This document shows, piece by piece, positions 4,491 to 34,311 of a stretch of 64,000 nucleotides of DNA. Source of the stretch: Nitrospira sp. (GTDB taxonomy: Bacteria; Nitrospirota; Nitrospiria; Nitrospirales; Nitrospiraceae); assembly GCA_024998685.1 (NCBI GenBank), contig JACOEH010000006.1, forward strand, positions 1 through 64,000, read 5' to 3'. Positions within the stretch are counted from its first letter, which is position 1. Every line of letters starts with the position of its first letter. Below the pieces are notes generated by a model. It did not search any database, had not been told where the DNA came from, and worked only from the letters and a program-made list of their open reading frames with translations. The position numbers were made by a program, and so were the translations under genes.

Positions 4491-4984
4491 CAGATTTCGC
4501 GACGCTCATCAGACTCCTCGTCAAACACGACATCGACTTCATCATTATCGGAGGAGCTGCTGCGACCACCCATGGATCGGCTCGGCTGACCCAAGACCTT
4601 GATATCGTCTATGGCCGCACGCCCCAGAACATGGCTCGGTTGGCAGCCTGTCTGGTTCCCTACAAACCGTATCTTCGAGGAGTGCCGCCAGGGTTGCCCT
4701 TCCAGTTTGATGCCTCGACGATCCAACGCGGCCTGAATTTTACACTCACGACTGAACTCGGGGACCTTGACCTCTTTGGCGAGATTCCTGAGGGAGGTCG
4801 CTACGAGGATTTGATTCCTCATACCATCACAATCACCGTGTTCGGCGCGACATGCCGATGTCTCGGTCTCAAGCGCTTGATCGAAGTGAAGCGCGCAGCC
4901 GGACGGCCGCGCGATCTCGAAGCGGTGGCCGAGTTGGAAGCACTTCTCGAGGAACGCGAAGACCGATCCGCCACCGATAGCTGA
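4487..4984 (+). CDS. Nucleotidyltransferase-fold protein (MNT/AbiEii-like)
   Basis: This 165-residue protein has a minimal nucleotidyltransferase core: a GGAAATTHGS loop followed by the DLD motif in TQDLDIVYG (about residues 37-41), and a third acidic position in ELGDLDLFGE. The C-terminal GLKRLIEVKRAAGRPRDLEAV region is typical of stand-alone nucleotidyltransferases annotated as AbiEii-like toxins or MNT antitoxins. It is coupled to the 73-residue gene upstream. Family knowledge suggests AMP or NMP transfer to tRNA or to a partner protein; which of these applies cannot be seen here. Confidence 0.75.
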   Translation: MTDFATLIRLLVKHDIDFIIIGGAAATTHGSARLTQDLDIVYGRTPQNMARLAACLVPYKPYLRGVPPGLPFQFDASTIQRGLNFTLTTELGDLDLFGEIPEGGRYEDLIPHTITITVFGATCRCLGLKRLIEVKRAAGRPRDLEAVAELEALLEEREDRSATDS

Positions 4985-5076
4985 ATCGCTCTCTAGAGTC
5001 TGGATGCGCAATAGAAGCGCATGATACTCAGAAGAAATAGCTGAATGTGTCTACCGTTTAAGGAGGGAAGAAGATC

Positions 5077-5640
5077 ATGAACTATTCCATGCGCCGAATT
5101 GTGGCCGCAGCCGCGGTGCTAGGTGTTATGACGGTCAGCACTGGATGCTACGGCCCGTTCAATCTCACGAAGAATGTCTATCACTGGAACAGCAACGTCA
5201 AAGGCAGCGGTGAAGTGAACAGTAAATGGATGAGGGAATTCGTGTTTTTCGGCATGTTTATCATACCGGTGTATGAATTTTCGCTATTGTTGGATACCTT
5301 CATTTTCAACTCGATCCATTTTTGGACCGGCGATAGCCCGATCAAATCTTCTGATCTACAGAACGACGGCACGAGAGTGGCCACTCTCGGAGAGACCACG
5401 ATCCGATGGACTTCTTTAAAGGATGGTGCAACCGTGACCTATGAACGCGATGGGGTTGCCGAACGCCAGGCCACGATCGAGCCCAATGCGACGGGCTATC
5501 GGCTCATCGATGAGAATGGAAGCCTTTTGTCGGAGGCGGAGTACGGAACCGATGGGAGTGTTCGTCTTCTCGATGGCGAGTGCCGGGTAGTCAATCGATG
5601 GAGCAAGGAGCAACTGCAATCCATCGCTCAGCGGCAATAG
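5077..5640 (+). CDS. DUF3332-family lipoprotein
   Basis: The 187-residue product has an N-terminal signal with a lipobox-like STGC (cysteine near residue 24), then GPFNLTKNVYHWN and a hydrophobic segment FVFFGMFIIPVYEFSLLLD. This matches DUF3332, a family of small envelope proteins of unknown function. The C-terminal half is polar and beta-rich. AAGGAGGG lies upstream of the ATG. Its neighbours are other envelope proteins; no operon partner is evident. Confidence 0.8.
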   Translation: MNYSMRRIVAAAAVLGVMTVSTGCYGPFNLTKNVYHWNSNVKGSGEVNSKWMREFVFFGMFIIPVYEFSLLLDTFIFNSIHFWTGDSPIKSSDLQNDGTRVATLGETTIRWTSLKDGATVTYERDGVAERQATIEPNATGYRLIDENGSLLSEAEYGTDGSVRLLDGECRVVNRWSKEQLQSIAQRQ

Positions 5641-5715
5641 TCCAATGCCCGGGGAAGCGGTTGTCTTGAAAAGTTGTAGGATATTGAAAGAGTTTGTCGA
5701 ACCGACCGTCGAGGA

Positions 5716-6399
5716 TCAAAAGCGCAGTCCTACGCCCAGCAACCCATAGTGGGTGCGGAAATCAATGGCCAGTCCCTCCCAATGATAGTCGGACGAGAGA
5801 TACCGGTATTCGCCGTACAGAAAGACCGCAACAGTTCGCTGCGTATTGAACAGTGGAACGTGGGGGCTAAGAACCACTTGTGCTCCGCCGAGAAATTGAT
5901 GGGTAAAGGCGCGGGCTGAGTCAAAGTCTTTATCATCTCTCCCCGCAATGTTTGGATTGAGCAGTGTACCGTGAGACCATCCGATGCCGGCTCCGATGTA
6001 CGGGCGGATCCTTTCCCCCGGATAGCGTAGGATCAGGTTGAACGTAGTATTGATAATGAGCAGGTCCGAGCGACCGGTTCCATGGTTCTGCCCATTGGCA
6101 ACGTTGGGAAAGGAGACAGCCGTGCCGTGCACGTTGGAATCCAGTTCAAGCCCCACCATTCGACGTAGTGCGGAAGGAAAGAGCCCGACCTTGAACCCAG
6201 CACCGAATCCGTCTTGAATCGAGCTGGGAACAGTTGTTTCTTGGTTGAAAATATTCATATCACGGGGCCACGAGCCCAACGCATACGCGCTCAATTCCAC
6301 ATCGCCGAATTCGCCCGCTATAGCCACATCTCGTAAGCACAAGCAGCAGAGCAGCAGAATGGGTGGAATAATCAGGCGTGCGAGGGAAGCAAGTCCCAC
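5716..6399 (-). CDS. Outer-membrane beta-barrel protein
   Basis: This is a 227-residue protein with a cleavable signal (a long hydrophobic LLLCCLCLRDVAIAG) followed by alternating hydrophobic and polar strands and a C-terminal aromatic residue (GLLGVGLRF), the signature of a small outer-membrane barrel. RPYIGAGIGWSHG is a typical barrel strand-turn. It resembles OmpW/Opa-like porin-family barrels, but I cannot assign a specific family. It lies downstream of the TRL gene on the same strand and is separated from it by a terminator-like hairpin. Confidence 0.75.
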   Translation of the reverse strand: MGLASLARLIIPPILLLCCLCLRDVAIAGEFGDVELSAYALGSWPRDMNIFNQETTVPSSIQDGFGAGFKVGLFPSALRRMVGLELDSNVHGTAVSFPNVANGQNHGTGRSDLLIINTTFNLILRYPGERIRPYIGAGIGWSHGTLLNPNIAGRDDKDFDSARAFTHQFLGGAQVVLSPHVPLFNTQRTVAVFLYGEYRYLSSDYHWEGLAIDFRTHYGLLGVGLRF

Positions 6400-17641: not shown

Positions 17642-19132
17642 ATGGACCTCATGACAGTGGATTCCAAACAGACAATCAGAGTGCTCCCTCAGTTGGTTCC
17701 TGAAACAGCGTGTGCCCGTTGTGATGTGTGTTGTCGTTTTCCGGAAGCCGACAGTTTTCTCCGCCCATACTTTACGGGTCCGGAAATCAGCGATGCCGTG
17801 GCGCACGGAGTCACCGAGTCGTTCTTTCCCGACAAGTCCGGCTCGCAGGTTGAGCTTGTCAAGAACCCCGTCGGCGAGGGGTACTTCTGTCCGGCTTTTG
17901 ATTCGAAGTCAGGGCGGTGCGGCATGTACGACGTTCGCCCCTTGGATTGTCGGCTGTACCCGCTGGCGTTGATGTGGGACGCGTCGGGTCGAGAAGTCCT
18001 GCTTGGTTGGGATTCCAAATGCCCGTTCATGCCCGATGCGCCCTCACATGCGGTTCGCGAGTATGGTGAACGTGTCGCGGCCTCCCTTGCGGATGAAACG
18101 ATCTTGGAAGCGATTGCGGCTCATCCCCGCCTCATCGGCCGCTTTCAGGAGGATGTGGTCGTTCTCAAGACACTCCCGCATCTGACGGTTCGGCTTGTAC
18201 CCGAGCGAGTTGATTCTCGTCTCCGCCCGCTGACGTTGTCCGACGCGCCGGGTCTCGCGAAGGCGCTCGAGCGTGCTCAGGTGATTCGCCATGACGCGCC
18301 GGCCGCCTTTGCATTTCCCTACCATTATATGTGGACGGCGCTGCTTCCCTACCGGTGGATGGAGGCCGATCACACGCTGTTTCTTTTTGCCGAATCTCCG
18401 GACGGATGGTTTATGCCGCTCCCACCGCTCGGAACGGAGCCTTTGGATCAGGCGGTGGAGCAGGCGTTCGCGCTCATGCGGGCGTGGAACGGGCCGTCGC
18501 CGGTGAGTCGAATCGAGAATGTGATGGAGTCACAAAGACAACGGTTGGAGTGCGACGAAATCCTCTTCCGTCCGAAAGAAGGAGACTACCTTTATTCCGT
18601 CGAAGCGTTGGCTGCTTTGACGGGAGATCGTTATAAATCTCAGCGGGCACTCTGCAATCGCGCGGCTCGAGAACAGGCGGTCACGATCGAGCCGTATCGT
18701 GCCGACTATCGAGCCGACTGCGCGCGTCTCTATCGGCGATGGGCGGAGCAGAAGCGGAACGGCCGTCTTGACCAGATGGGGAAGCTGCTTTTGGAAGACG
18801 CAGAACCGGCCCATGCGCTCGTCTTTCAAGAGTACGAGCGGATCGGCTTGTCGGGCACCGTCGTGAGAGTCAACGATGACATCGTCGCCTACACCTTCGG
18901 CTACTGGTTGACTCCTCAAACCTGGTGCATCTTATTGGAGGTCGCGAACCGTTCCATCCCCGGTCTGGCTCAGTGGGTCTTCCGCGAAACCTGTCGAACG
19001 GCCATGGCGCAAGGGGCAGTCTATGTCAATGCCATGGATGATGCAGGTCTTCCGGGGCTCCGTGCGGCCAAGTCGGCCTATCGCCCCTCCATGGTTCTGA
19101 ACACCTGGGTGATCACAAGGACGACCACATGA
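17642..19132 (+). CDS. YkgJ-type Cys-cluster domain fused to a DUF2156/GNAT-like domain
   Basis: The 496-residue product begins with a YkgJ/CxxCxxCC cluster (CARCDVCC, then YFCPAF, RCGMYD and PLDCRLYPL, residues ~20-120), a probable metal- or FeS-binding module. The C-terminal half (about 290-490) resembles the DUF2156/LPG-synthase C-terminal acyltransferase fold: YLYSVEALAALTGDRYKSQR, ARLYRRWAEQK, TVVRVNDDIVAYTFGYWL, NAMDDAGLPGLRAAKSAY. Such domains transfer aminoacyl groups from tRNA or acyl groups from acyl-CoA. Its stop overlaps the histidine kinase start (ATGA), so output and sensing may be linked. Confidence 0.7.
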   Translation: MDLMTVDSKQTIRVLPQLVPETACARCDVCCRFPEADSFLRPYFTGPEISDAVAHGVTESFFPDKSGSQVELVKNPVGEGYFCPAFDSKSGRCGMYDVRPLDCRLYPLALMWDASGREVLLGWDSKCPFMPDAPSHAVREYGERVAASLADETILEAIAAHPRLIGRFQEDVVVLKTLPHLTVRLVPERVDSRLRPLTLSDAPGLAKALERAQVIRHDAPAAFAFPYHYMWTALLPYRWMEADHTLFLFAESPDGWFMPLPPLGTEPLDQAVEQAFALMRAWNGPSPVSRIENVMESQRQRLECDEILFRPKEGDYLYSVEALAALTGDRYKSQRALCNRAAREQAVTIEPYRADYRADCARLYRRWAEQKRNGRLDQMGKLLLEDAEPAHALVFQEYERIGLSGTVVRVNDDIVAYTFGYWLTPQTWCILLEVANRSIPGLAQWVFRETCRTAMAQGAVYVNAMDDAGLPGLRAAKSAYRPSMVLNTWVITRTTT

Positions 19133-21441
19133 CCCATCTGGAAGAGCGAACCGCTTCAACGGCTCGCCGTTATGAGTGGTTGATGTTCGTGATGGTCTTG
19201 ATCACGCTGTTTACTCTGGGCGTGGGGACCTTCCTGCTCGGTCATGTTGAGCGCAGTATCGTGGCCGCCGTCTGGCTCCCTCTGTTGGTGTTGCTGTTAT
19301 GGTCCACGATTCGATTGCGGGCGGAATATCGTCAAGCCCAGCAGGAAAGCGCCTGGGCGCGAGCCGCTGAGGCGGCCTTACTGCAAAGTCAGGAACGCAA
19401 TCGAGCGATTGTCGATACGGCGCTCGATGGAGTCATCACCATCGATGCAGCCGGAATCGTGACCGAATGGAATGCCCAGGCGACGGCGATCTTCGGATGG
19501 ACCCGCGAAGAGGCGATGGGGAAGTTGCTCTCAGACACGATCATCCCCGAGCGGGATCGTGAATCGCACGCACGGGGGATTCGAGAGTATCTCAAGACCG
19601 GAGTGGGCCCGGTGTTGAACCGCCGGATCGAGATCGCTGCGCGACATAAGGAAGGCCACGAGTTTCCTGTCGAGCTCGCCGTCTCGCCGGCGCGTATCGG
19701 TGAAGCGTATATCTTCAGCGCGTTCCTGCGGGACATTACGGATCGTCGTCAGGCCGAACGACGGCTGGCGTCCCAATATGCGGTGACGCGGGTTCTATCC
19801 GAGGCCCTGACACTGGAGGAAGCGGTACCAAGGATCACTCAGGCAGTCGGTGAAAGTCTTGAATGGGACCTCGGTATATTTTGGCGAGTGGACAAGCAAG
19901 CTGGTATATTGCGGTGTCTCCATCGTTGGCAAGCAGAGACGGTCCGCGCCGATGAATTCATTGCAGCGAAGCAGCTCCGGAGCTTCAAGATCGGGGTGGG
20001 GCTGCCGGGTCGAATTTGGGAAAACGGGCGGCCGATGTGGATCAGCGATGTGACGTGTGATCCCACTTTTGTGGGAGCGGATTTAGCTGCCAAAGCCGGG
20101 CTTCACGGAGCCTTCGGGTTTCCGATTCGTATCGGCGGTGAAGTCGAGGGGGTCATCGAATTCTTCAGCCATCAGGTCCACGAGCCGGACCGCGAGCTGC
20201 TCAGTATGATCACCGATGTCGGCCTCAAAATAGGGCAATTCGGCGAACGCACGAGAGCCGAAGAGGCGTTGCGCCTGACGGAGGCGCAACTGCGCCAAGC
20301 GCAGAAGATGGAGGCCGTGGGGCGGCTCGCCGGTGGTGTCGCCCATGATTTCAATAATTTGCTGACGGTGATTCGTGGATACAGCGAGTTGATTCTGAGT
20401 CGCTTGGCGCCGACGGATCCCGCGCGACGTGAGATGGAAGAAGTCAAAAAAGCCGCTGATCGAGCCGCCGGCCTGACCAGCCAACTGCTGGCATTCAGCC
20501 GCCGACAATTTGTCGCGACCAAGATCGTGGATTTGAACGCGATCGTCATGAACATGGACGGGATGCTGCGGCGGCTGTTAGGCGAGGACATCATTGATCT
20601 CTGTGCCGACCTCGAGCCGCATTTGGGATCGATCAAGGCCGATCCGGGGCAGATCGAGCAAGTGATCATGAATCTGGCCGTGAATGCTCGGGACGCCATG
20701 CCGACGGGCGGCCAGCTGACGATTCAGACTCGGAATGTCGCCATCGGGAAAGACCCTCGACGTGAAACCATGATACTCGACAAGGGAACGTACGTGCTCC
20801 TTGCAATCAGGGATACGGGTCATGGGATGAGCGAAGAAACCCAATCGCATTTGTTCGAGCCGTTCTTTACCACCAAAGAAAAAGGGAAGGGAACGGGCCT
20901 TGGGTTGTCCACTGTATACGGTATCGTGAAGCAAAGCGGTGGAACGATTGGGATCGAAAGCACGCCGGGACTGGGAACCACGTGCAAGATCTTCTTCCCG
21001 AAAGTAGATGAGATCGCACAAGCCGCGCCGGTCACCAATGGAGCAGTGGGCAGAGCGATCGGGCGCGAAACTATCCTCGTCGTCGAGGACGACCCGTCGG
21101 TGCGCGGACTCGTGCAAGAAGCCCTTCGCCTCAGTGGATACGAGGTATTGATCGCGCGTCACGGCATCGAAGCGCTTCTGACCGGCGCGAAGCATCCGGG
21201 CCCTATCCATTTATTGCTGACGGACGTCGCGATGCCGCAGATGAGTGGGCCGGAGGTCGCAGAAAAACTAACGGTGGTGAGGCCGGAAATCAAGATCTTG
21301 TACATGTCCGGCTACCCCGATCATCCGGTATTCGAGCAGGGCGGGATCAAACGAGACACGGCCTTTCTCCAGAAGCCCTTTACGCCGAATCTGCTGACCC
21401 AAAAAGTTCGTGAAGTGCTCGATGGGAAGAAGGTGGCCTAG
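19129..21441 (+). CDS. Hybrid sensor histidine kinase (2 TM, PAS, GAF, HisKA, HATPase, REC)
   Basis: The 770 residues run in order: two transmembrane helices with almost no periplasmic loop (~18-62), PAS (~85-205, TIDAAGIVTEWNAQATAIFG), GAF (~215-370), HisKA with H406 in GGVAHDFNNLL, a HATPase (DTGHGMSEETQSHLFEPFF, GTGLGLSTVYG) and a receiver domain (ILVVEDDPSVRG, acceptor D699 in LLTDVAMP). The lack of a periplasmic sensor suggests that it senses through PAS/GAF in the cytoplasm. It is coupled by overlap to the Cys-cluster fusion gene. No separate response regulator adjoins it. Confidence 0.9.
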   Translation: MTHLEERTASTARRYEWLMFVMVLITLFTLGVGTFLLGHVERSIVAAVWLPLLVLLLWSTIRLRAEYRQAQQESAWARAAEAALLQSQERNRAIVDTALDGVITIDAAGIVTEWNAQATAIFGWTREEAMGKLLSDTIIPERDRESHARGIREYLKTGVGPVLNRRIEIAARHKEGHEFPVELAVSPARIGEAYIFSAFLRDITDRRQAERRLASQYAVTRVLSEALTLEEAVPRITQAVGESLEWDLGIFWRVDKQAGILRCLHRWQAETVRADEFIAAKQLRSFKIGVGLPGRIWENGRPMWISDVTCDPTFVGADLAAKAGLHGAFGFPIRIGGEVEGVIEFFSHQVHEPDRELLSMITDVGLKIGQFGERTRAEEALRLTEAQLRQAQKMEAVGRLAGGVAHDFNNLLTVIRGYSELILSRLAPTDPARREMEEVKKAADRAAGLTSQLLAFSRRQFVATKIVDLNAIVMNMDGMLRRLLGEDIIDLCADLEPHLGSIKADPGQIEQVIMNLAVNARDAMPTGGQLTIQTRNVAIGKDPRRETMILDKGTYVLLAIRDTGHGMSEETQSHLFEPFFTTKEKGKGTGLGLSTVYGIVKQSGGTIGIESTPGLGTTCKIFFPKVDEIAQAAPVTNGAVGRAIGRETILVVEDDPSVRGLVQEALRLSGYEVLIARHGIEALLTGAKHPGPIHLLLTDVAMPQMSGPEVAEKLTVVRPEIKILYMSGYPDHPVFEQGGIKRDTAFLQKPFTPNLLTQKVREVLDGKKVA

Positions 21442-21609: not shown

Positions 21610-22119
21610 TCATGGCCTTCCGTTGCGCAATTCCGACAGGGCTTCGAGAATGTCCGCCGGGCGTGGTGGACAGCCCGGGATACGGACGTCGACCGGAATG
21701 TGTCGTTCAACCGGCCCGGTCACTGCATAGCAGCCTTTGAACATGCCGCAGTGGATCGCACAGTCGCCGAGCGCAATGACGAGTTTTGGGTCAGGAGTTT
21801 GCTTGTGCGCATCTTTCAATGCCCGCTCCATGTTGACGGTGACCGGCCCCGTCACGATCAATGCGTCTGCATGGCGCGGAGAAGCTGCGATGTGAATGCC
21901 GAATTGTTCCGCGTCGTACACGGGATTCATGAGCGCATTCATTTCCATCTCACAGGCGTTGCACGAGCCGGTATCCACTTCACGGATCGCGAACGACCGT
22001 TTGAAGAGTCCGGCTTTCTTCTTAACTTCCGGGACGACGGGCACCGCAGCCGGCTCTCCTTTTTGATACTGGCCCGTCACGACCCCGATCTTCAGACTTT
22101 TTTTGATGATACGGAACAT
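21610..22119 (-). CDS. Hyf/Ehr-complex small subunit (NuoB-like FeS protein)
   Basis: This 169-residue homologue of HycG/HyfI and NuoB would carry the [4Fe-4S] cluster nearest the active site or quinone. The ligand cysteines are C53 and C56 (TGSCNACEME), C120 (GDCAIHCG) and C150 (PGCPPRP), all retained; C124 and C130 are extra. The CxxC spacing at the first pair is hydrogenase-like rather than the adjacent CC of NuoB. It is the last gene of the six-gene minus-strand operon, 11 bp after the large subunit. Confidence 0.88.
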   Translation of the reverse strand: MFRIIKKSLKIGVVTGQYQKGEPAAVPVVPEVKKKAGLFKRSFAIREVDTGSCNACEMEMNALMNPVYDAEQFGIHIAASPRHADALIVTGPVTVNMERALKDAHKQTPDPKLVIALGDCAIHCGMFKGCYAVTGPVERHIPVDVRIPGCPPRPADILEALSELRNGRP

Positions 22120-22130
22120 GTTCGGCCTCC

Positions 22131-23729
22131 CTACAGATCATTCCCCGCGTATGAGAGGTTAAAGCTCTTGTTGATGAGTGGAAAGTCCGGGATGATATTC
22201 CCCAGTACCGCCCATTGAATGGCAGGCCAATTCACGAATGACGGGTCACGGACCTTGCACCGATGAATCCGGCCGCCTTCCCCCGCCATCACCATATAGA
22301 GAATTTCCCCTCGCCACCCTTCAACCGCTGATAACGTCCAGTCGCCAGGGTCCGGTGACCGACTCGGTTCATTGGCGATCGGACCATCCGGGATCTTGCC
22401 GCGCAACTCGCGAATGAGCCGAATGGATTCGTGAATCTCATCGCCACGAACGCGCAATCTGGCCCTCACATCACCATAGCGATACAGGGCCACGTTCACG
22501 GGTAATGCGTCATACGCGGCGAATGGGCGATCACGCCTCAGGTCGCAATCCATGCCCGATGCCCGGCCCACGACGCCCATCACCGCATGATCCCATGCCG
22601 TTCGCTCGTGGAGAATTCCCGTCGTCTCCAGTCGATCGGTGAGCGAGGCATTCGCAAAAATGATGGCTCCCACTTCTGAGAAGTCCAGCTGGATTCGGTT
22701 CAGTTCCTCGACGATCTCGGTGAGTCGGCCGTTGTCTATATCCCGCGTCACCCCCCCGACCCGGATGGCGCCTCGCAGGAACCGTGACCCTGTCAGCCGG
22801 TCATTGAGCTGCATAATCCGCTCTTTCATCCGACCGCAATGCGCATGGGCCAGCGCATAGGCCGTGTCATTGCACATGGCGCCGATGTCGCCGAGATGAT
22901 TGGACAGCCGTTCCAGCTCCAGAAAGAGAGTGCGCAGATACGTGGCGCGCCGAGGCACTTCGAGATGCAGAAGCGTTTCAACCGCCTGGCAATAGGCGAG
23001 ACCGTGCCCCACCGTCGTATCTCCGGACACGCGCTCCGCCAGCGGCAACGCGTCGATCAGCGTCTGTTGTTCGAACAGCTTTTCTACACCACGGTGTTTC
23101 CAAAAATGGCGCAGCTCGAGTTGCATAATCGGTTCACCGGCCACAGAAAACCGAAAATGTCCCGACTCGATAATCCCGGCATGGATAGGCCCCACCGGTA
23201 CTATGAATACCCCTTCTCCTTCAATATGGCGGAAGTGATGTTCGCCCTGCTGCCGACCGAGCACACGGTCCCAGGGAAAATCCTTCCGAAGGGGGTGCAT
23301 CCCTTTCGGCCAGTGCTCGTGTCGGACGAGACGTCGCAAGTCCGGGTGCCCTTGAGGAATCAAGCCGAACATGTCGCGAATCTCGCGCTCATACCAATGA
23401 GCGGCATGAATGTGCGGGGTAATGGAAGGAAACAGCCGATCGTTGCCGATGAGTTCAGTGGACAACATCACCCAGTGGTGAGAGCCCTCCAGCGTAAACA
23501 AGTAGTAGAGTCCGTAGGTGTCGCGAACGGGGCGATGATCACAAGCCCATAAGAGCGTCAGCCTGCCGCGAAAATTCGGTTGGGTATGGAGATAGTGAGT
23601 GATCGCCGGCAGAAGATCCTTGGGGACCACGAAATGTGAAGACTTCGCACAGACCGGGGCATTCTGCCGAATGGCCGGGAACGCGACTTTGAGCACATCG
23701 TCACAGAGCCTTGCCTCCGGCATGATCAT
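22131..23729 (-). CDS. Hyf/Ehr-complex large subunit (NuoC-NuoD fusion) lacking Ni ligands
   Basis: In this 532-residue protein, residues ~1-170 are NuoC-like (HWYEREIRDMFGLIPQGHPD) and the rest is NuoD/HycE-like (VGPIHAGIIESGHFRF, HRGVEKLFE). In [NiFe] enzymes of this group the metal is held by two CxxC pairs. Here the first reads ERVSGDTT (S235, T238) and the C-terminal one reads SFNLSYAG (S526, G529). All four ligands are therefore replaced, and no C-terminal maturation peptide is seen. It cannot be a normal hydrogenase; it fits the energy-converting hydrogenase-related (Ehr) group or a quinone-reactive relative. Confidence 0.88.
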   Translation of the reverse strand: MIMPEARLCDDVLKVAFPAIRQNAPVCAKSSHFVVPKDLLPAITHYLHTQPNFRGRLTLLWACDHRPVRDTYGLYYLFTLEGSHHWVMLSTELIGNDRLFPSITPHIHAAHWYEREIRDMFGLIPQGHPDLRRLVRHEHWPKGMHPLRKDFPWDRVLGRQQGEHHFRHIEGEGVFIVPVGPIHAGIIESGHFRFSVAGEPIMQLELRHFWKHRGVEKLFEQQTLIDALPLAERVSGDTTVGHGLAYCQAVETLLHLEVPRRATYLRTLFLELERLSNHLGDIGAMCNDTAYALAHAHCGRMKERIMQLNDRLTGSRFLRGAIRVGGVTRDIDNGRLTEIVEELNRIQLDFSEVGAIIFANASLTDRLETTGILHERTAWDHAVMGVVGRASGMDCDLRRDRPFAAYDALPVNVALYRYGDVRARLRVRGDEIHESIRLIRELRGKIPDGPIANEPSRSPDPGDWTLSAVEGWRGEILYMVMAGEGGRIHRCKVRDPSFVNWPAIQWAVLGNIIPDFPLINKSFNLSYAGNDL

Positions 23730-23735
23730 CCTCTC

Positions 23736-25274
23736 CTATTGAATCACCAGAATTGCGGCTGCCCGTTCTAAAAGCTGTTGTATGGGCTGTGGTAGAAACA
23801 AGCTGAATCCCACCAGCGCTCCGGCAAGAAGAATGATCGGTAAATGACCGAGTGTCCAGACTTCTCCCCGCACAATACCCTCCGGAGGCGTTCCCCACAC
23901 CATCCCGGTCATGCGATACAGCAGTCCGCCGAACGAAAGAACCGCAGAGACCAGAAATACTGAAGCCAGTGCGACCCGGCCGAATTGGTCCGATAATGTC
24001 ACCGTCACCATGCCCTCGGTACCGGTAAACTCTATTCCTGGAACCCCTTGCGAAGCCAAGGCCGTGAGAATCTGGACTTCGCTGGCAAATGCCGCAAACG
24101 GAGGAAGCGCCGATAAAGCCAACCCCGAGATCATCAGGGCCGTTGCTGTCCAAGGTTGCGCCATGGCCACCCCTTGCACATCACCGATTTCCACCGTGTG
24201 AAAGCGACGGTGAATGTTGCCTGCAGCAAAAAACGCCATCGATTTAGCCAACGCATGGTTCAAGAGATGAAACAGGCCGCCGAAAGTTCCCAGTGGACCG
24301 CCGACTCCAAATCCGATCATGGCGATCCCCATGTGCTCGATGCTGGAATAAGCAAACAGCCGCTTATAGTTGTGCTGGATGAGGAGAAAGAACGCCGCCG
24401 TCACGAAGGAGGCAAAGCCGAGCAGCGCCAACAGCCCACCGGCGAAGGCAAACGGAACGGCGTGATCAACGATCATCCTCACCCTTAGGATCGCATAGGC
24501 CGCGACCACTTCGAGGACACCTGCGAGCATGGCGACTACCGGAGCCGGGGCCTCCATATACGCATCCGGCAACCAGGTGTGCATCGGGACGAGCCCTACC
24601 TTAGTGCCATACCCCACCAGGATGAAGATGAAGGCCAACTTGAGGACATGCGGATTCAACCGATCGGCCACGGGGAGCAGCTGTGTCACGTTTAATCCTT
24701 GACTGGCATCACTCAGTACATGCAGTGACGAGTAATACAGCAGTACGACACCGAACAATGCGAGCGAGATTCCCACCGAACATAAAATGAGGTATTTCCA
24801 CCCGGCCTCCAGCGACTCTCGTCGTCTCCAAAAAGCGATGAGAAAGGTGGTGGCGAGCGTCGTCGCCTCGATGGCTACCCATTGCACCCCGACACTATTC
24901 GCAACGGTCGCGACCACCATGGCGAGCAGAAACATATGAAAGAGAAAAAAGAACAAGTTGAGGCGTGAAGGTGCGATCGCGCCCCGTGCCACTTGTTCGT
25001 CCATGTACGAACGCATGTAGAACGAACATGCCGATCCGACCACTCCGATAATGAACAGAATGAAGGTCGACAACGCGTCGAGGTACACCAACTGGTCCAA
25101 CGTCGTGAATGAGCCGTCTCTCAGCACGGTCCGGGTGATCGCGATTTCGGCCGTCACGATGGTGCCCATACTGGCCAAGTTGATCGCGTGGAGCAGTGCG
25201 GAGCGGCGGACGACCAGGCTCAGCCATCCCGCGAGAAGCGGCGCGACCAGCAAGACCACGACTGTGATCGTCAA
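23736..25274 (-). CDS. Hyf/Ehr-complex antiporter-like membrane subunit (HyfF/NuoN-like)
   Basis: This 512-residue multi-helix protein belongs to the Mrp/NuoL-M-N ion-translocating family. Diagnostic segments are VGLVPMHTWLPDAYMEAPAP and QHNYKRLFAYSSIEHMGIAM, the lysine-histidine region of these subunits. The start is a TTG at 25274 with GGAGGG just before it, 11 bp after the HyfE-like gene. It probably moves protons or sodium ions across the inner membrane as part of the complex. Confidence 0.88.
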   Translation of the reverse strand: MTITVVVLLVAPLLAGWLSLVVRRSALLHAINLASMGTIVTAEIAITRTVLRDGSFTTLDQLVYLDALSTFILFIIGVVGSACSFYMRSYMDEQVARGAIAPSRLNLFFFLFHMFLLAMVVATVANSVGVQWVAIEATTLATTFLIAFWRRRESLEAGWKYLILCSVGISLALFGVVLLYYSSLHVLSDASQGLNVTQLLPVADRLNPHVLKLAFIFILVGYGTKVGLVPMHTWLPDAYMEAPAPVVAMLAGVLEVVAAYAILRVRMIVDHAVPFAFAGGLLALLGFASFVTAAFFLLIQHNYKRLFAYSSIEHMGIAMIGFGVGGPLGTFGGLFHLLNHALAKSMAFFAAGNIHRRFHTVEIGDVQGVAMAQPWTATALMISGLALSALPPFAAFASEVQILTALASQGVPGIEFTGTEGMVTVTLSDQFGRVALASVFLVSAVLSFGGLLYRMTGMVWGTPPEGIVRGEVWTLGHLPIILLAGALVGFSLFLPQPIQQLLERAAAILVIQ

Positions 25275-25285
25275 GGGGCCCTCCG

Positions 25286-25951
25286 CTATTCCTTCAGTAT
25301 GGTGAGTCGGTCTGTATTCACACTATCGAACGCGTCTTGTAAGCGATTCGTATAGATCCCCGCGATCAATGCCGCAATGAGCACGTCGAAGAACACACCG
25401 AGTTCCACGATCAACGGCATCCCGTGTGTGGCCGCCGTGGCCCCCAGGAACAGCCCGTTTTCCATGACCAGAAAGCCCACCAGTTGCGTGACGGCCTTTT
25501 GCCTCGCAATCATCGTGAACAATCCGATGAGCACGATCGCGAGGGCGATGGCTAAAGAATCCCGCGTGAGGAGAGAGCCCAACGGAATGATCGGCTGCGC
25601 GATGAAGAAGGCCAGCATGACCAGCCCGCCGCAGATCAACAGCCCGGCCGGCACGTTGACGTACATCACCAGCTCCCGCTTGACGTTGAGGCGATCAATG
25701 ATTTTCTTAAGGACCCGCGGAATGATGATCACTTTGATGACACCGGTCAGTGCCGCAGCGATATAGATGTGCTGGTTCCCGGTCAAATAGGCCACCAGCG
25801 TTGCAGTCAGGACGAGAAAGGCCGACTGCAGGGCGAACAGGTCGACGCAGGCCGAGAGCCGCCGTTGCGCCACAATCGCGAAACAGGTCAACAAGAGCAA
25901 GGCCGAGCATAAGTTGACGAGTTGTGATCCAATGGAAGAAAGCACCGGCAT
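25286..25951 (-). CDS. Hyf/Ehr-complex membrane subunit (HyfE-like)
   Basis: This 221-residue protein with about six to seven helices resembles hydrogenase-4 component E. Markers are VIIIPRVLKKIIDRLNVKREL in a cytoplasmic loop and LVGFLVMENGLFLGA near the C-terminus, where a membrane glutamate is expected by analogy with NuoK. It lies four bp after the HyfC-like gene and 11 bp before the HyfF-like gene. Confidence 0.85.
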   Translation of the reverse strand: MPVLSSIGSQLVNLCSALLLLTCFAIVAQRRLSACVDLFALQSAFLVLTATLVAYLTGNQHIYIAAALTGVIKVIIIPRVLKKIIDRLNVKRELVMYVNVPAGLLICGGLVMLAFFIAQPIIPLGSLLTRDSLAIALAIVLIGLFTMIARQKAVTQLVGFLVMENGLFLGATAATHGMPLIVELGVFFDVLIAALIAGIYTNRLQDAFDSVNTDRLTILKE

Positions 25952-25955
25952 CCGT

Positions 25956-26906
25956 TCAGCTCCGAAGAATATAAAAGAACAGCAACCCGAGCAGCGCGAG
26001 AATAAATGCCACGCCCAGCAGATCCGTGACCCGGAACAACCGCAATTTTGCGAACATACATTCGATGACCCCGATTGCCACCGCGAGTGCTGCGATTTTC
26101 GCCAAGTACACCAGAAGCCCGATCGCCATAGCAGCGGGTGTCATCGTCGTCGCGATGCCCCAGGGCGCAAAAACGTTGGCGATCAAAGAGAGGAACACCG
26201 CTAGTTTCAGGCCGGCCGCCCATTCGAGTAAGGCAAGGTAGCGCCCAGAGTATTCAAGGACCATGGCTTCATGGATCATGGTCAATTCAAGATGTGTCGC
26301 CGGATTATCGACCGGTACCCGTCCTGTCTCTGCGAGTGCCACGATAAAGAGGGCCGCCAGCGCCATCAGATGCGGCGATGGGTCCGTCATGATACCTTCC
26401 AGCACCGCTGTCTTATGAACCACCGTGCTGAGATTGGTGGATCCCGCAGTCAGCGCGATGGCAAAGATGGATAGGATCATCGCCGGCTCGGTCAGCGACG
26501 CCACGATCGCTTCCCTGCTGCCGCCCATCCCGCCAAAAGCCGATCCGGCATCGAGTCCCGCGAGAATCAAGAAAAACGTGCCCAACGCCAAGAGGTACAC
26601 CAACGCAATGATGTTTCCCGCAAAGTTCATGGGTGTCTGCGAGGTGAACGTGGGGACGAGGAGGCCCGCCGTCAACGTGGAGGCGAATACGATATACGGG
26701 GTCGCTGTGAAGATCCAGGAGGTGGTGGTCGAGATCACCGGTTGCTTTTGGAAGAGTTTGACCAGATCAGCATAGGGTTGGAGGACACTCGCGCCCCGTC
26801 GCAGTTGAAGGCGGGCCTTGACCTTTCGGATCAGGCCCACCAGAAACGGTGAGACGGCCAGTAAGACGGTCGTCTGAGCCACGATGAGAGTGACCGATTC
26901 GAGCAT
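25956..26906 (-). CDS. Hyf/Ehr-complex membrane subunit (HyfC/NuoH-like)
   Basis: This 316-residue protein with about eight helices matches HycD/HyfC and NuoH, the subunit that connects the soluble arm to the membrane arm and frames the quinone site in complex I. Visible markers are RRGASVLQPYADLVKLFQK, AETGRVPVDNPATHLELTMIHE (conserved acidic loop) and EYSGRYLALLEWA. Only three bases separate it from the upstream antiporter-like subunit gene. Confidence 0.88.
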   Translation of the reverse strand: MLESVTLIVAQTTVLLAVSPFLVGLIRKVKARLQLRRGASVLQPYADLVKLFQKQPVISTTTSWIFTATPYIVFASTLTAGLLVPTFTSQTPMNFAGNIIALVYLLALGTFFLILAGLDAGSAFGGMGGSREAIVASLTEPAMILSIFAIALTAGSTNLSTVVHKTAVLEGIMTDPSPHLMALAALFIVALAETGRVPVDNPATHLELTMIHEAMVLEYSGRYLALLEWAAGLKLAVFLSLIANVFAPWGIATTMTPAAMAIGLLVYLAKIAALAVAIGVIECMFAKLRLFRVTDLLGVAFILALLGLLFFYILRS

Positions 26907-26909
26907 CGA

Positions 26910-28937
26910 TTACACCGCGAGCAACAGCAAGGCGATAAGTGTGACGAAAATATAGGTCAGGTAGAGATGTAGACTGCCCGCCTGGATGACCTTTAGGCGG
27001 TCGGCCAAAGCCGCGAAGAACGCCACCAAGGGATCGTAGAGATACTTCTCAAAGATCGGTTCAATGTGAAATTCAAAGTGTCGTCGTTTCGCGAAGTATC
27101 GTGACTCGTCGAGAAACTCCGTCTCGAGTTTGACCGTCGGCTGGTAGATCGTACTGAAGACTCGTTTGATCGGCTGGACAAAACCGGTCGCGGTGTATTC
27201 CATCCTGGGTGAGAGGTTGATCCCACAGCCCCAGGTCTTGTAACGGCGCGGTTTCAGACGACCACCGAGCGTGACGGCTAGTGCCAAGCCTAGCAGCGAC
27301 AGCGCAACCAGCAACAGCGCAAGCACCGGTGTGGAGAGGCTTGAGAATTCGACATTCACCGGTGCCAGCGCCCAACCATCTATCGCCAGAATGTTCCTTG
27401 CGATCGATATCCCTGCCAAAGGAGTGACCACTCGGTCCAACAGCGGCACCACCACCATCGGGGCGATGCCCAAGGCCACGCAGAAGGTGGCTAAAAAACC
27501 CATCGCGATGCGCATGGGAACCGGAGCCTCCTCAGCGTGACGGGCATGTGCGCTCCGTGGCTGCGCGAGAAACGTAATCCCGAACGCTTTGGCGAAGCAG
27601 GCCAAGACCAGCACGCCGGTGAGGGCCAAGATCGCCGCTGCGATCGGCAGCATCAGCTTGAGAAACACCGTCGGAATCTGAAAACTCAGAAAGAGACTTT
27701 GAAACACCAGCCACTCACTCACAAATCCATTGGTAGGAGGCAGAGCGGAAATCGACACGGCCCCGATCAAAAAAAAGAGCCCCGTCCAAGGCATGCGCCG
27801 AAGTAACCCGCCGTACTCCTCCATATTGCGCGTATCTGTCGCATAGAGCAGCGAGCCGGCTCCTAAGAACAGCAGGGCCTTGAACAGGGCGTGATTGATC
27901 GTATGGTAGATCCCGGCCAGCAGTCCGAGCGCAGCGAGTTCCTTCAATCCATAGGACTGAAAAATCATGCCGACCCCGATGCCCAACAGGATGATGCCGA
28001 TGTTTTCCACGCTGTGAAACGCGAGGAGCCTCTTGAGGTCATGTTCCATCAACGCGTACATCACACCCAGTAGCGCAGATGTCGCCCCGAGGAGCAGCAC
28101 CGTGAAGCCCCACCACCAAGGGAACTGTCCACCGAAGAAATCGAAATAGACCCGGATCAAACCATAGATCGCGGTTTTAATCATGACACCGGACATCACG
28201 GCTGAGACATGCGACGGCGCCACCGGATGCGCATAGGGCAACCACACATGGAGCGGTACGATACCCGCCTTCGTGCCGAACCCGATCAACGCCATCAGAA
28301 ATACGAGGGTTTTCATGCCCTCGTGCAAGGGCTGCCCCGGATGCCGAAAGGTTTCAAAGGAAAATGATCCGGTACTCTGGAAGAAAATCAAGAACGCCAC
28401 GACAATGAACGCGGTTCCGACATGCGTCATGATCAAGTAGAACAATCCCGCATACCGCACGTCCGCCTTCTCGTGCTCCGTGACCACCAGAAAATAGGAC
28501 AGGAGCGACATCAGTTCCCAGGCGAGCAGGAAGAAAAACCCGTTGTCCGCAAGGACGACGAACGTCATAGCGAGGAGATACGCGTTGAAGAGCGCTCCGA
28601 GCGTGGCGATCGATGTGCGCCCAGCGAAATGCCGCAGATATCCGATGGCATAGATCGACGCGGCAAGGCCCACAACGGAGATGGTCAAGACGAAGAACGC
28701 CGCGAGTGAATCGAGCCGAATCGCCAAGGTGAGCAGCGGAATTGTGGAGGCGAGGGAGCCCGTGACCGGTTCCGAAGACGTGAGTCCAAGAAGCCCGAGG
28801 ACGACACCAGCGCTGGTCGCCACGATGGCGGGGACGCTGGTCATGAGATTTTGAGCGTTGGGGTCTCGGGGAAGGCAAAAGGGAAGTAGAATCCCGGCCA
28901 CATACCCGCCGAGAAGGACCCACAACAGATTCAGCAT
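26910..28937 (-). CDS. Hyf/Ehr-complex antiporter-like membrane subunit (HyfB/NuoL-like)
   Basis: This 675-residue protein with about fifteen helices is the first gene of the operon proper. Family segments include LPYAHPVAPSHVSAVMSGV followed by MIKTAIYGLIRV (transmembrane lysine), LMEHDLKRLLAFHSVENIG, and a C-terminal RYKTWGCGINLSPRMEYTATG as in HyfB-type proteins. It probably translocates ions. Order and spacing of the whole set (B, C, E, F, G, I) equal a compact hydrogenase-4 operon without the ferredoxin-like subunits A and H and without D. Confidence 0.9.
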   Translation of the reverse strand: MLNLLWVLLGGYVAGILLPFCLPRDPNAQNLMTSVPAIVATSAGVVLGLLGLTSSEPVTGSLASTIPLLTLAIRLDSLAAFFVLTISVVGLAASIYAIGYLRHFAGRTSIATLGALFNAYLLAMTFVVLADNGFFFLLAWELMSLLSYFLVVTEHEKADVRYAGLFYLIMTHVGTAFIVVAFLIFFQSTGSFSFETFRHPGQPLHEGMKTLVFLMALIGFGTKAGIVPLHVWLPYAHPVAPSHVSAVMSGVMIKTAIYGLIRVYFDFFGGQFPWWWGFTVLLLGATSALLGVMYALMEHDLKRLLAFHSVENIGIILLGIGVGMIFQSYGLKELAALGLLAGIYHTINHALFKALLFLGAGSLLYATDTRNMEEYGGLLRRMPWTGLFFLIGAVSISALPPTNGFVSEWLVFQSLFLSFQIPTVFLKLMLPIAAAILALTGVLVLACFAKAFGITFLAQPRSAHARHAEEAPVPMRIAMGFLATFCVALGIAPMVVVPLLDRVVTPLAGISIARNILAIDGWALAPVNVEFSSLSTPVLALLLVALSLLGLALAVTLGGRLKPRRYKTWGCGINLSPRMEYTATGFVQPIKRVFSTIYQPTVKLETEFLDESRYFAKRRHFEFHIEPIFEKYLYDPLVAFFAALADRLKVIQAGSLHLYLTYIFVTLIALLLLAV

Positions 28938-29277: not shown

Positions 29278-30210
29278 TCATTCGTGCGCCTGTATGTGGA
29301 CCATCGGCTCAATCTCTTTCTTCTGCTCCTCCGTCACGCTATATTGCATATAGTCGTGTTCTAGTGCTTCATTGACGTAGAGCCGCCCAGTCGGCGCCAA
29401 GACCGCGAAGTCTGCTTCCGTGGTTCTTTTCGGTCCAACCGTGACGGCTTGTTCATTGACTGTTCGGATATAGGGATGCCACACCACCAGCTTGTAGGTG
29501 CCGGGCGGCACATCGGTGATCGTGAAACGGCCCTGCTCATCCGTCTTGGCGAAGTAGGGATTGCTGACGGCCAGACCCCAGCTCTCCATGTAGGCGTGGA
29601 AGCCGCATTGCATGACGAAGACCCGGCGGTCTTTGCTGAGCATGACCAATTCTTTTTTCGGCGCTCCGGCCTTGTGTTTGTGATACAGCGCGGCGTCGCC
29701 GCGGTCTCTGAAGTTTCGTGGATGTTGTGGGTTCATCGGAAGCGGGACGTTGAAGAGGACGCGCGCACCCAAATGTGACGTCTCATAGGCTTGGATGTCG
29801 TGCATGACCGGGTCCATGTTGACGACCGTCACCGATGTGTTGTCACGCACCACCGTCGTGAATGGGAGAAAGAGGCAATCTTTCGCTTCGATCTGTGGAA
29901 CCCCGCCGTCCTCAAAGGGTTTCCCTTTCTTGACTCCCTCGAGATAGACCACTACGTCCTGGAACTTGCCGCCTGGCCCGATGTTGAACGGTTGAAGAAT
30001 GCGCCAGCCTTGCCCATCGGAAATGCGCCCGCAATAGTAAGGATCGGGCAAGGTGGTGAGATTGTAACCCTTTGGCTTCGGGATCTGGCCCTCCAAGTGC
30101 ACCGTGCCTGTGAGCGTTCCTCCGTCGGATACCGCGATGACTTCGTAACACCAGGCTGGCGAGACCGTTCCGATGAGAATGGCGAGCATTGTACTCACGC
30201 AATATCGCAT
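29278..30210 (-). CDS. Periplasmic cupredoxin-like protein with carboxypeptidase-regulatory domain
   Basis: This 310-residue protein has a signal peptide (about 22 residues). A type 1 copper arrangement is visible: histidine in DPVMHDIQAYE and the MQCGFHAYM loop (Cys, His and Met at the cupredoxin spacing). The following DEQGRFTITDVPPGTYKLVVWHP is a carboxypeptidase-regulatory-like (CNA-B type) domain. Relatives are often annotated as methylamine-utilisation or plastocyanin-like proteins and are common near respiratory genes. It may carry electrons in the periplasm or bind copper. Placement upstream of the Hyf/Ehr operon on the same strand is suggestive only. Confidence 0.75.
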   Translation of the reverse strand: MRYCVSTMLAILIGTVSPAWCYEVIAVSDGGTLTGTVHLEGQIPKPKGYNLTTLPDPYYCGRISDGQGWRILQPFNIGPGGKFQDVVVYLEGVKKGKPFEDGGVPQIEAKDCLFLPFTTVVRDNTSVTVVNMDPVMHDIQAYETSHLGARVLFNVPLPMNPQHPRNFRDRGDAALYHKHKAGAPKKELVMLSKDRRVFVMQCGFHAYMESWGLAVSNPYFAKTDEQGRFTITDVPPGTYKLVVWHPYIRTVNEQAVTVGPKRTTEADFAVLAPTGRLYVNEALEHDYMQYSVTEEQKKEIEPMVHIQAHE

Positions 30211-31350: not shown

Positions 31351-32709
31351 TCACTCGCGAATTCCGTATTCCTTGATCTTGTATTGGAGAGTCCGAAGGC
31401 TGATGCCTAACAGTCTTGCGGCATTTTCTCGATGGTTGGTGACTTCCTTCAACGTTCGTTCGATCACTTGTCGTTCAATCTGTTCGATAGACGTTCCCAA
31501 TGTAATCAGCATCGTCCGTGCATCCTCTTTGCAGGCCTGGATTTCCTCAGGCAGATGCGCGGGTTGAATCGTCGTATCTTTTACCGTGACGACCAGCCGC
31601 TCCATGAGATTTCGTAGTTGGCGAACGTTTCCAGGCCACCCATAGAGCCGTAACAACCGCATGGCCTCTCGCGAGACTTCTCTCGGCCCGCGGTGATGCT
31701 GCGCGGAGAACTCGGACAGGTATCGATCCACCAGCAGAGGGATATCGTCCACCCGATCGCGAAGCGGCGGAAGGCGGAGAGGGACGACATTGAGCCGATA
31801 GTAGAGATCTTCGCGAAAATCTCCCTGTTTGACCGCTTCATCCAAATTCCGATTGGTCGCGGCTACGATCCTCGTATCGACTTTGATGAGTTTCGTTCCA
31901 CCCAGACGCCTGAATTCCTTCGTTTCAAGGACACGCAGAAAATCGACTTGCGACTTGAGCGAGAGTTCACCGACTTCATCCAACAACAATGTCCCGCCGT
32001 CCGCCAGTTCGAACCGCCCGACCTTGGTTGCCATGGCACCGGTAAACGCGCCTTTCTCATACCCGAATAACTCGCTCTCAAAGAGATTTTCAGGCAAGGC
32101 ACCGCAATTCAGAGTAATAAACGGCCCGTCGACCTTCGGGCTTTTATGGTGGATCGCGCGCGCGACGAGTTCCTTCCCGGTTCCGCTTTCCCCTGTGAGC
32201 AAGACCGTCACGTCGCTGTCCGCCACCATCTCCACCAGGGTATAGACTCGCTGCATGGCCGTGCTCTCGCCGACCATGTGATCGAAACGTGTTTTCGTTT
32301 CAAGACGGTCACGGAGTTGCTTGTTCTCAAAGGCCAGGGCATGGCGCTCAATCGCCTTCTCCACGATCACCGTAAACCGCTCACGATCGATCGGTTTTGT
32401 CAGATAGTCGTGGGCGCCCAGACGCATCGCTTCCACCGCCGTATCGATCGAGCCAAAGGCGGTCATGACCACGACCTCCGTGTCCGGCCATTTGGCTTTC
32501 AGTCGGCGCAGGAACTCCATCCCATCAATTCCGGGCATTCTCAGATCGGTAATCACCAGATTCAGTCGGGCCTCTTCCAGATGCCGCAGAGCCTCTTCTC
32601 CTGTGCCTGCCCCGCAGACCCGGTAGCCCCTTTTCTCCAACATGGTCACCAGGGCGTTGCGGATATTCACCTCGTCATCGACGACGAGAATGTGAGCAGC
32701 CTTCGTCAT
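31351..32709 (-). CDS. NtrC-family sigma-54-dependent response regulator
   Basis: The 452 residues comprise a receiver (acceptor D55 in LVITDLRMPG), a sigma-54 AAA+ domain with Walker A GESGTGKE, the RNA-polymerase contact loop GAFTGA, Walker B GGTLLLDEVGEL and the arginine-finger region, and a C-terminal Fis-type helix-turn-helix (ENAARLLGISLRTLQYKIKEYG). It is coupled to its histidine kinase by a four-base overlap, kinase first. Its target promoters are not identifiable; no clear sigma-54 site lies directly downstream. Confidence 0.92.
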   Translation of the reverse strand: MTKAAHILVVDDEVNIRNALVTMLEKRGYRVCGAGTGEEALRHLEEARLNLVITDLRMPGIDGMEFLRRLKAKWPDTEVVVMTAFGSIDTAVEAMRLGAHDYLTKPIDRERFTVIVEKAIERHALAFENKQLRDRLETKTRFDHMVGESTAMQRVYTLVEMVADSDVTVLLTGESGTGKELVARAIHHKSPKVDGPFITLNCGALPENLFESELFGYEKGAFTGAMATKVGRFELADGGTLLLDEVGELSLKSQVDFLRVLETKEFRRLGGTKLIKVDTRIVAATNRNLDEAVKQGDFREDLYYRLNVVPLRLPPLRDRVDDIPLLVDRYLSEFSAQHHRGPREVSREAMRLLRLYGWPGNVRQLRNLMERLVVTVKDTTIQPAHLPEEIQACKEDARTMLITLGTSIEQIERQVIERTLKEVTNHRENAARLLGISLRTLQYKIKEYGIRE

Positions 32710-34103
32710 GATCGCACACCGACCTTCTGCGGTTGATCAATCGCCGCGGGAAACTGCGTCACCACCGTCGTTCCGCTTCCAGGCGCGCTCGATACCTGAA
32801 TCGTACCGCCGTGATCCTGCATAATACGGTATGCGATCGCAAGACCAAGCCCGGTGCCGCTCGGCTTGGTCGTGTAGAAGGGCTCAAACAGGCGGGAGAG
32901 CTGCTTCTTCGCGATCCCGACGCCGCTATCCTTCACGGCGATCTCTACCCAGCGTTTCCCTTCAGCTTCCCGTTGCATCGCTGAAATCCGACAGAGTCCG
33001 CCGTTCGGCATGGCATGAAACGCATTAACGACGATGTTGACCAATACCTGGCTGATTTGGGTTTCATCGCCCAGTACAGACGGTAATTCCTCATTCGTAA
33101 CCTGTTCGAGTCGAACCTGACGTTCCTGCGCCTCGAAACGCATCAGCGTCATGATGTGGTCGATGAGCGCCCTTATGTCTACCTCGTGCAAACCAAGAGA
33201 TCCCGGGCGAGCGAATTTCAAAAAGTTATCAAGAATTCCTGAGAAACGGCGGCATTCGGCGTTCAGGACACGGAGGTACCGTGCCCCTGCTTCTGTCCTC
33301 GTTCCGTGCTCCGTGAGTTCCTCTTCCAGAAGATGGAGGTTCAGGTCCATGGCGCTCAAGGGATTTCGTAGTTCGTGCGCCACCCCTGCAGACAGGGTAT
33401 GCAATGCCGCCAACTTCTCCGCGACATGGACACGTCGTTCGAGCCCGAGCCACTCCGTGATGTCCTGCGCCTGCAGGATCACCCCCGCCGGCTTCTTGTC
33501 GTCCCCCCTGAGCTCCGCGGTACTCACGCGAATCGTCCTCGGGTTGAGGTCCCCGCATTCGTAGAGGAAGTCTTTCTGACTCACATGCCGGTGATCTCTC
33601 AACGCCTCGTCGAGAGCCTGTCGAATCGGGTCTGTCTCGGGGAATACAGCATCATACTCTTTGCTCAGTAACCCAGACGAAGTGCGATTCAACACCGCCT
33701 CTGCCGCGGGATTCACCGCGCTGACGATTCCTTCCCGATTGATCGTGAGCACACCCGTGGGAATACTCTGGAGAATGTTCCGTGCCAGTCCCTTCACTTC
33801 TTCCAGGGTTCTGCGGGTGGTATCGTAGTGAAGAAAGGTGACAAGCGCCGCAATCCCGATCGCACTCACCAGGAATACGAGGAGTGTTTCGACGATCAGA
33901 TCGCTGCGTGATTGCCAGAGGGCGTGTAATAGTTCAGTCGGAGCCTTGTTACCTTCGGTGAAACCTCGGAGGAGGAGTTTTTCTCGTTCCAGGCTGAAAA
34001 CCAAAATTACGGAGACGACCAAGGCCACGCTCAGGAGGACGGATGCGATCAATCGATAAGAAATGCTTAGGAAAAGCGTTGTATTTTGAATGGGTCTGAA
34101 CAT
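32706..34103 (-). CDS. Membrane sensor histidine kinase, partner of the NtrC-type regulator
   Basis: This 465-residue protein starts from ATG 34103, chosen because the upstream in-frame ATG at 34151 adds an unlikely N-terminus. Two transmembrane helices (~13-33 and ~70-93) frame a short periplasmic loop. A PAS domain (ILTINREGIVSAVNPAAEAV), HisKA (SAGVAHELRNPLSAMDLNL) and HATPase (VKDSGVGIAKKQLSRLFEPF, GTGLGLAIAYRIM) follow. The layout resembles AtoS/ZraS-type kinases that feed a sigma-54 activator. The periplasmic loop is about 35 residues, so the signal may be membrane stress or a small ligand. Confidence 0.9.
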   Translation of the reverse strand: MFRPIQNTTLFLSISYRLIASVLLSVALVVSVILVFSLEREKLLLRGFTEGNKAPTELLHALWQSRSDLIVETLLVFLVSAIGIAALVTFLHYDTTRRTLEEVKGLARNILQSIPTGVLTINREGIVSAVNPAAEAVLNRTSSGLLSKEYDAVFPETDPIRQALDEALRDHRHVSQKDFLYECGDLNPRTIRVSTAELRGDDKKPAGVILQAQDITEWLGLERRVHVAEKLAALHTLSAGVAHELRNPLSAMDLNLHLLEEELTEHGTRTEAGARYLRVLNAECRRFSGILDNFLKFARPGSLGLHEVDIRALIDHIMTLMRFEAQERQVRLEQVTNEELPSVLGDETQISQVLVNIVVNAFHAMPNGGLCRISAMQREAEGKRWVEIAVKDSGVGIAKKQLSRLFEPFYTTKPSGTGLGLAIAYRIMQDHGGTIQVSSAPGSGTTVVTQFPAAIDQPQKVGVRS

Positions 34104-34311
34104 TGCCGTGTTACATGGAAACGCGCACCGCCGGTATGCTAACACGCACAAGGTCTCTTGTGCAGCGAGTTCAACCGGCAGCGGGATCCATGTTTCGCCT
34201 AAAACGACATGGCTCCTCTTTGCTTGATCTTCAGTCTTTGTTCCGTTTATTGTGGCATGGATTTGGCCGTGCGGTCGGGCCGAGGCAGTGTGATAGATCA
34301 GGAGTGATGCA

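Follow-up and report, generated by a model that had tools for sequence, protein, structure and literature searches.

A ligand-less energy-converting hydrogenase-related (Ehr) complex encoded by a compact hyfBCEFGI operon in Nitrospira

The hyfBCEFGI operon was described in the genus by Camejo et al., who reported it in all the NOB-like Nitrospira genomes examined and in some comammox ones (Camejo et al., 2017; PMC5596200). The absence of both CxxC motifs from HyfG was reported in 2020 (PMC7305129), and in 2023 the Nitrospira complexes were named Ehr and placed phylogenetically near group 4f (PMC10284858). In 2025 Ehr was recorded in about half of the Nitrospirales genomes with no function assigned (PMC12342949), in a paper that also cites the result that Ehr expression in N. 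moscoviensis is not raised by H2. Cysteine-free Ehr has additionally been described in bacteria of the candidate phyla radiation (CPR; PMC7304191) and in ammonia-oxidising archaea (PMC10432482). Because ligand-less Nitrospira complexes and the Ehr of Nitrospirales have already been published (PMC7305129, PMC10284858, PMC12342949), the ligand loss that we describe below is not new: our locus adds one more member, with the same hyfBCEFGI genes, the same double CxxC loss, the same genus and no essential difference from the published ones. Our additions are modest, namely tailless relatives that retain all four cysteines, the lack of a tail in members without the cysteines, operon neighbours encoding ATP synthase or 2-oxoacid:ferredoxin oxidoreductase (OFOR), and a retained glutamate (E188); the novelty of each is not established.

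The window, i.e. the whole stretch of DNA analysed here, comprises 64,000 nt (positions 1 to 64,000 of contig JACOEH010000006.1) from a Nitrospira sp. genome of 4.83 Mb in 105 contigs. On its minus strand, at 21610-28937, family searches identified six ORFs in the order hyfB, hyfC, hyfE, hyfF, hyfG and hyfI, separated by gaps of 3, 4, 11, 6 and 11 nt; this bears out the initial annotation, which had described six genes with the order and tight spacing of a compact hydrogenase-4 operon. HyfB (26910..28937, 675 aa) is an antiporter-like (NuoL/HyfB) subunit scoring 747 bits against NF005086 (hydrogenase 4 subunit B; cut-off 667), and HyfC (25956..26906, 316 aa) is a NuoH-like membrane anchor with the PF00146 (NADHdh/NuoH) domain. 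The membrane subunit HyfE (25286..25951, 221 aa) has as its sole match NF008556 (hydrogenase 4 membrane subunit; E 1.4e-28), under the curated cut-off. A second antiporter-like subunit, HyfF (23736..25274, 512 aa, listed with a TTG start), likewise finds the hydrogenase 4 subunit F model as its top match under the cut-off. HyfG (22131..23729, 532 aa) is the large subunit, a fusion of NuoC and NuoD (30 kDa + 49 kDa) without [NiFe] ligands, and HyfI (21610..22119) is the small (20 kDa) subunit with one four-cysteine [4Fe-4S] site. Among the window ORFs, no HyfA, HyfH or HyfD gene lies inside or adjoining the operon, in agreement with the earlier remark that the ferredoxin-like subunits A and H are missing.

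By sequence, the closest solved relative of HyfG is HycE of the E. coli formate hydrogenlyase (E 9e-79). In both pairwise and multiple alignments the HycE CGIC motif falls on S235-G-D-T238 (codons at 23016..23027, minus strand) and its DPCYSC on N-L-S526-Y-A-G529; the latter stretch, S526-Y-A-G529-N-D-L532 (codons at 22134..22154, minus strand), is where HyfG stops, with no maturation tail. All four substitutions proposed at the outset, S235/T238 and S526/G529 in place of the two CxxC motifs, are thus upheld by the HycE alignment, which also rules out DPSFVNW (around residue 496) as a candidate for the second motif. Genuine cysteine pairs were not found elsewhere in the large subunit: its eight cysteines (9, 27, 63, 247, 286, 298, 395 and 491) include no CxxC pair. 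Chance or assembly error can be excluded because both motifs recur in intact Nitrospirales orthologues and in relatives from many phyla. HyfI does retain its four cluster cysteines, as had been claimed: in the multiple alignment C53, C56, C120 and C150 match the ligand positions of the hydrogenase cluster, and its CxxC spacing is of the HycG/HyfI type and not of the NuoB type.

HyfG therefore has neither the four NiFe-centre cysteines of group 4 [NiFe] hydrogenases nor the C-terminal maturation tail of group 4a. Instead, the operon combines a group 4-hydrogenase-like large subunit devoid of CxxC nickel ligands, a small subunit with proximal [4Fe-4S] ligands, and co-encoded antiporter-like and NuoH-like membrane subunits. 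Trees group it with the published Nitrospira Ehr family, and its N. moscoviensis orthologue in NZ_CP011801 (locus L100) is 73% identical. The complex is almost certainly an Ehr and no ordinary [NiFe] hydrogenase, and its original filing under that group was right. With HycE/HycG and HyfG/HyfI of E. coli it shares the large-subunit fold (Z 49, 31% identity), the NuoC-NuoD fusion, the HyfI cluster spacing and the gene order; in contrast, only the E. coli enzymes have the four nickel cysteines, a 33-residue tail and ferredoxin subunits (HyfA/HyfH or HycB/HycF), their HyfC loop is not the same, and the window operon has neither HyfA/HyfH nor the linked formate dehydrogenase of formate hydrogenlyase/hydrogenase-4. 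Complex I (NuoCD/NuoB/NuoH) resembles it as a member of the superfamily, in the loss of all four cysteines and in the pump residues, but it also has a tandem CysCys in NuoB, quinone-site residues and an NADH module, all of which are missing from the window operon.

Judging from the alignments, the ligand loss is ancient and family-wide and not peculiar to the window operon. Homologues occur in 21 of the 59 relatives and, at the level of the phylum, in 175 of 296 genomes; the orthologue of Nitrospira sp. LS_FP_2_bin.31 is 89% identical in HyfG. Intact Nitrospirales orthologues carry identical SGD(T/S/A) and SYAG motifs in the multiple alignment, and more than 100 homologues from many phyla have the same ligand replacement. 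A GTDB genome scan supplied 80 loci for comparison, from Acidobacteria, Rokubacteria, Omnitrophota, the CPR, Actinobacteria, Burkholderia, archaea and others, and most of these have the BCEFG plus I operon in the same compact form; in bacteria and archaea alike, HyfA/HyfH mostly do not adjoin it. Among 129 aligned large-subunit rows, a set that includes E. coli NuoCD, 20 have all four cysteines, two have some and the others none. Between Nitrospira orthologues, dN/dS ranges from 0.07 to 0.18 across the six genes; with a value of about 0.1, the operon evolves under purifying selection.

Departures from the common arrangement are sporadically found. Two tandem HyfF-like antiporter genes occur in order- and class-level relatives (L046, L047, L085, L087 and L101), with Nitrospira having one, and L076 and L077 are tandem Ehr operons on one contig that differ in subtype (SGT(D/S) and SGDT). 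In one Nitrospira relative (L049, genome G016; about 4950-6300) the locus is a decayed remnant, in which a large deletion joins the start of hyfB to the end of hyfG and one cluster cysteine of HyfI is replaced by tyrosine. An apparent insert in the hyfC of L039 is most likely an assembly artefact, as runs of N stand beside duplicated sequence.

The relatives that keep their cysteines bear on the origin of the family. Every one of the 109 rows without four cysteines (E. coli NuoCD, ending ..VDR, counted among them) stops exactly one residue past the second motif; hence, a maturation tail is lacking throughout the Ehr members. The tail is also absent from nine relatives with all four nickel cysteines (L121, L123, L125, L139, L143, L144, L152, L161 and L167), which differ from the window operon in those cysteines while sharing with it the compact operon where the contig allows, the HyfC loop and an NKS...Y..D C-terminus. 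Since these four-cysteine relatives have both features, tail loss and the change in the HyfC loop are not consequences of nickel loss. They are possible [NiFe] hydrogenases, whose maturation would presumably require no endopeptidase. A supported clade (98/93) unites nine Firmicutes-type rows, of which eight have four cysteines and one, from a Desulfosporosinus MAG (L141:4406-5827), retains two (SGIC / ELSYAC); L123, from Planctomycetota, has four as well. The other partly substituted row, from an Omnitrophota MAG (L145:10001-11443), has a single cysteine left (CGDA / DLSYAA). In a careful tree the compact tailless family is split from the E. coli enzymes and from the tailed four-cysteine enzymes of another Nitrospirota family with support 100/100, and the tailless four-cysteine group, mostly Firmicutes, appears to sit near the family base. 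The number of losses depends on the tree: one quick tree nests the four-cysteine clade inside the family, another has a single cysteine loss (support 86), the careful tree counts three cysteine changes, and a constraint that unites all the non-cysteine rows is not rejected (p-AU 0.48). These results fit one to three losses of the cysteines. Together with L141 and L145, the tailless four-cysteine relatives make the transition from hydrogenase to Ehr testable by comparison.

An AlphaFold2 model of HyfG built from 94 family sequences (pLDDT 93, pTM 0.94, with values below 50 only at 182-189) replaced an initial one from 18 sequences, in which pLDDT fell below 50 at 161-213 and at 509-532, the latter containing the second motif. 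The nearest solved structure is HycE (7z0s_E), which matches the model over its whole length (Z 49.2, rmsd 1.8, 522 residues), and residues 170-532 match the complex I 49-kDa subunit with a Z of about 45. The quinone-binding residues H38 and Y87 of complex I Nqo4 have no counterparts in the aligned HyfG. With a near-invariant glycine, G236, at the position of Y87 and a hydrogenase-type beta1-beta2 loop, HyfG has no evident quinone site of the complex I kind. E188 is present in 89 of the 94 rows and, from the GPxH....EPGH motif, is the probable counterpart of MbhL E21, a residue that is key to proton reduction in MBH and missing from MBS (PMC7684303). The predicted ion path is retained as well: E141, K223, K302 and E408 in HyfB, E136, K225, H340 and E399 in HyfF, and E140, D200, E207 and E218 in HyfC are invariant or nearly so among 60-70 relatives, with those of HyfC all invariant. 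HyfC also has a family-specific loop, PVDNPxTHLELTMxHE. NuoK-type glutamates are absent at the aligned positions of HyfE, where the alignment is weak, and the same is seen in E. coli HyfE. The kept pump residues and the low dN/dS support the earlier suggestion that the operon, its pumping subunits intact, is selected for a different reaction.

Hence, the complex is likely to be a redox-driven ion pump that operates through the HyfI cluster. Electrons would enter or leave via this cluster, a second substrate might occupy the emptied active-site chamber where HyfG, HyfI and HyfC meet, and HyfC, HyfE, HyfF and HyfB would carry the ion translocation to which the reaction is coupled. Consistent with an ion pump, F-type ATP synthase genes adjoin the operon in five loci, mostly of the CPR (L103, L105, L113, L130 and L137). 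The quinone- or ferredoxin-linked pumping suggested at the outset is a hypothesis. As for the partners in Nitrospira, a more tentative matter, soluble ferredoxin might dock directly on HyfI, with quinone as the other likely partner; we give about an even chance to such a pump with ferredoxin and quinone as candidate partners, a proposal that draws on neighbour genes in some relatives, the published need for reduced ferredoxin and analogy. Among the neighbours are OFOR-like genes near the operon in four Nitrospirota loci (L085, L094, L097 and L101), which are not independent because they are related to one another, the gene in L094 being diverged. Ehr-carrying CPR bacteria are not known for quinone-based respiration, and quinone is thus unlikely as a family-wide substrate. 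The presence of Ehr in the CPR, along with the missing complex I quinone residues, suggests that the second substrate may differ among lineages.

Reduced ferredoxin is needed in Nitrospira (PMC8407350, PMC6606698) and the route to it has been stated as not known (PMC8407350); Ehr complexes, widespread and apparently energy-conserving, bear on how nitrite oxidisers obtain it. Were the complex to run in reverse, driven by the ion gradient, it could help to provide the reductive TCA cycle with reduced ferredoxin. A more specific form of this idea, which we regard as speculative and on the whole unlikely, is that the Nitrospirota Ehr acts as a gradient-driven quinol:ferredoxin oxidoreductase feeding the 2-oxoacid:ferredoxin oxidoreductases of that cycle, with the hydrogenase chamber as the new substrate site. 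A rival source of reduced ferredoxin is the 2M complex I (PMC12342949, PMC6606698). Also counting against a ferredoxin role, only about half of the Nitrospirales carry Ehr, yet the reductive-TCA autotrophs need reduced ferredoxin.

Among other explanations, the one that survives best, improbable as we consider it, is a hydrogenlyase-like ion-pumping module in which a formate dehydrogenase feeds HyfI and something other than protons is reduced. The Hyf homology of the operon is in keeping with this, complexes of formate dehydrogenase and Ehr have been proposed in Riflemargulisbacteria and Saganbacteria (PMC6349859), Geobacter has higher levels of Ehr subunits on formate (PMC7894505), and Camejo et al. 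connected the operon of NOB Nitrospira with formate (PMC5596200). However, no formate dehydrogenase gene adjoins the window operon, and FdhA scores above the TIGR01591 cut-off, which may miss divergent formate dehydrogenases, in 4 of the 59 relatives (three of them with hyfG) and not in the window genome. Canonical formate dehydrogenase is rare in the Nitrospira relatives whether or not the operon is present.

We attach considerably less weight to the possibility of an enzyme like MBS/MBX that would reduce polysulfide or sulfane sulfur directly at its iron-sulfur cluster. P. furiosus MBS is likewise a group 4-derived ion pump that lost part of its nickel ligands and lacks the Nqo4 H38/Y87 residues, but its proximal-cluster motif is three residues shorter, with three-cysteine ligation that leaves one Fe without a cysteine ligand (PMC7684303), whereas HyfI has the hydrogenase spacing and all four cysteines. 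MBS further keeps two large-subunit cysteines, against none at the ligand positions of HyfG, and has an Mrp-like antiporter module and the MbsN ferredoxin subunit, no equivalent of the latter being encoded in the window operon. Marginally less probable again is a transport or structural module with a vestigial redox part, tied for example to DabA inorganic-carbon uptake: DabA genes adjoin the operon in L086 and L123, but these are just 2 of 118 loci, and conservation is strong both in the cluster cysteines of HyfI and in the core of HyfG. A functional hydrogenase with unusual ligands, or a misassembled true one, is suggested by the group 4 hydrogenase fold and gene order but has a negligible probability, given the absence of cysteine at the ligand positions in the window and nearly all homologues, the missing maturation tail, the location of hypD, which is on a separate contig close to another NiFeSe_Hases (PF00374) match, and the lack of induction by H2 as cited in PMC12342949.

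Further features of the neighbourhood deserve mention. Proteins of the PF02552 type (CO_dh, ACS epsilon-like), like the OFOR-like genes in favour of the redox-driven pump reading, are encoded near the operon in six Nitrospirota-relative loci; their occurrence by OFOR genes may explain the CODH annotation that Camejo et al. reported beside the Ca. N. nitrosa operon (PMC5596200). Convergent with the window operon, a PAS/GAF hybrid histidine kinase (19129..21441, plus strand) adjoins it in many Nitrospira. On the upstream side lie a conserved sigma-54 response regulator (31351-32709, minus strand) and a sensor kinase (32706-34151, minus strand), associated by proximity only; a pattern search upstream of hyfB found no sigma-54 -24/-12 promoter. 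Closer to hyfB, a conserved neighbour in several Nitrospirales (29278..30210, minus strand) is a predicted secreted protein, with a signal-like N-terminus and a carboxypeptidase-regulatory-like domain, whose H, C, H and M residues recall by eye a putative copper-binding (cupredoxin-like) site. Elsewhere in the window, at 49074-51086, a type II NADH dehydrogenase-like protein is fused at its C-terminus to cyclic-nucleotide-binding and CBS domains.
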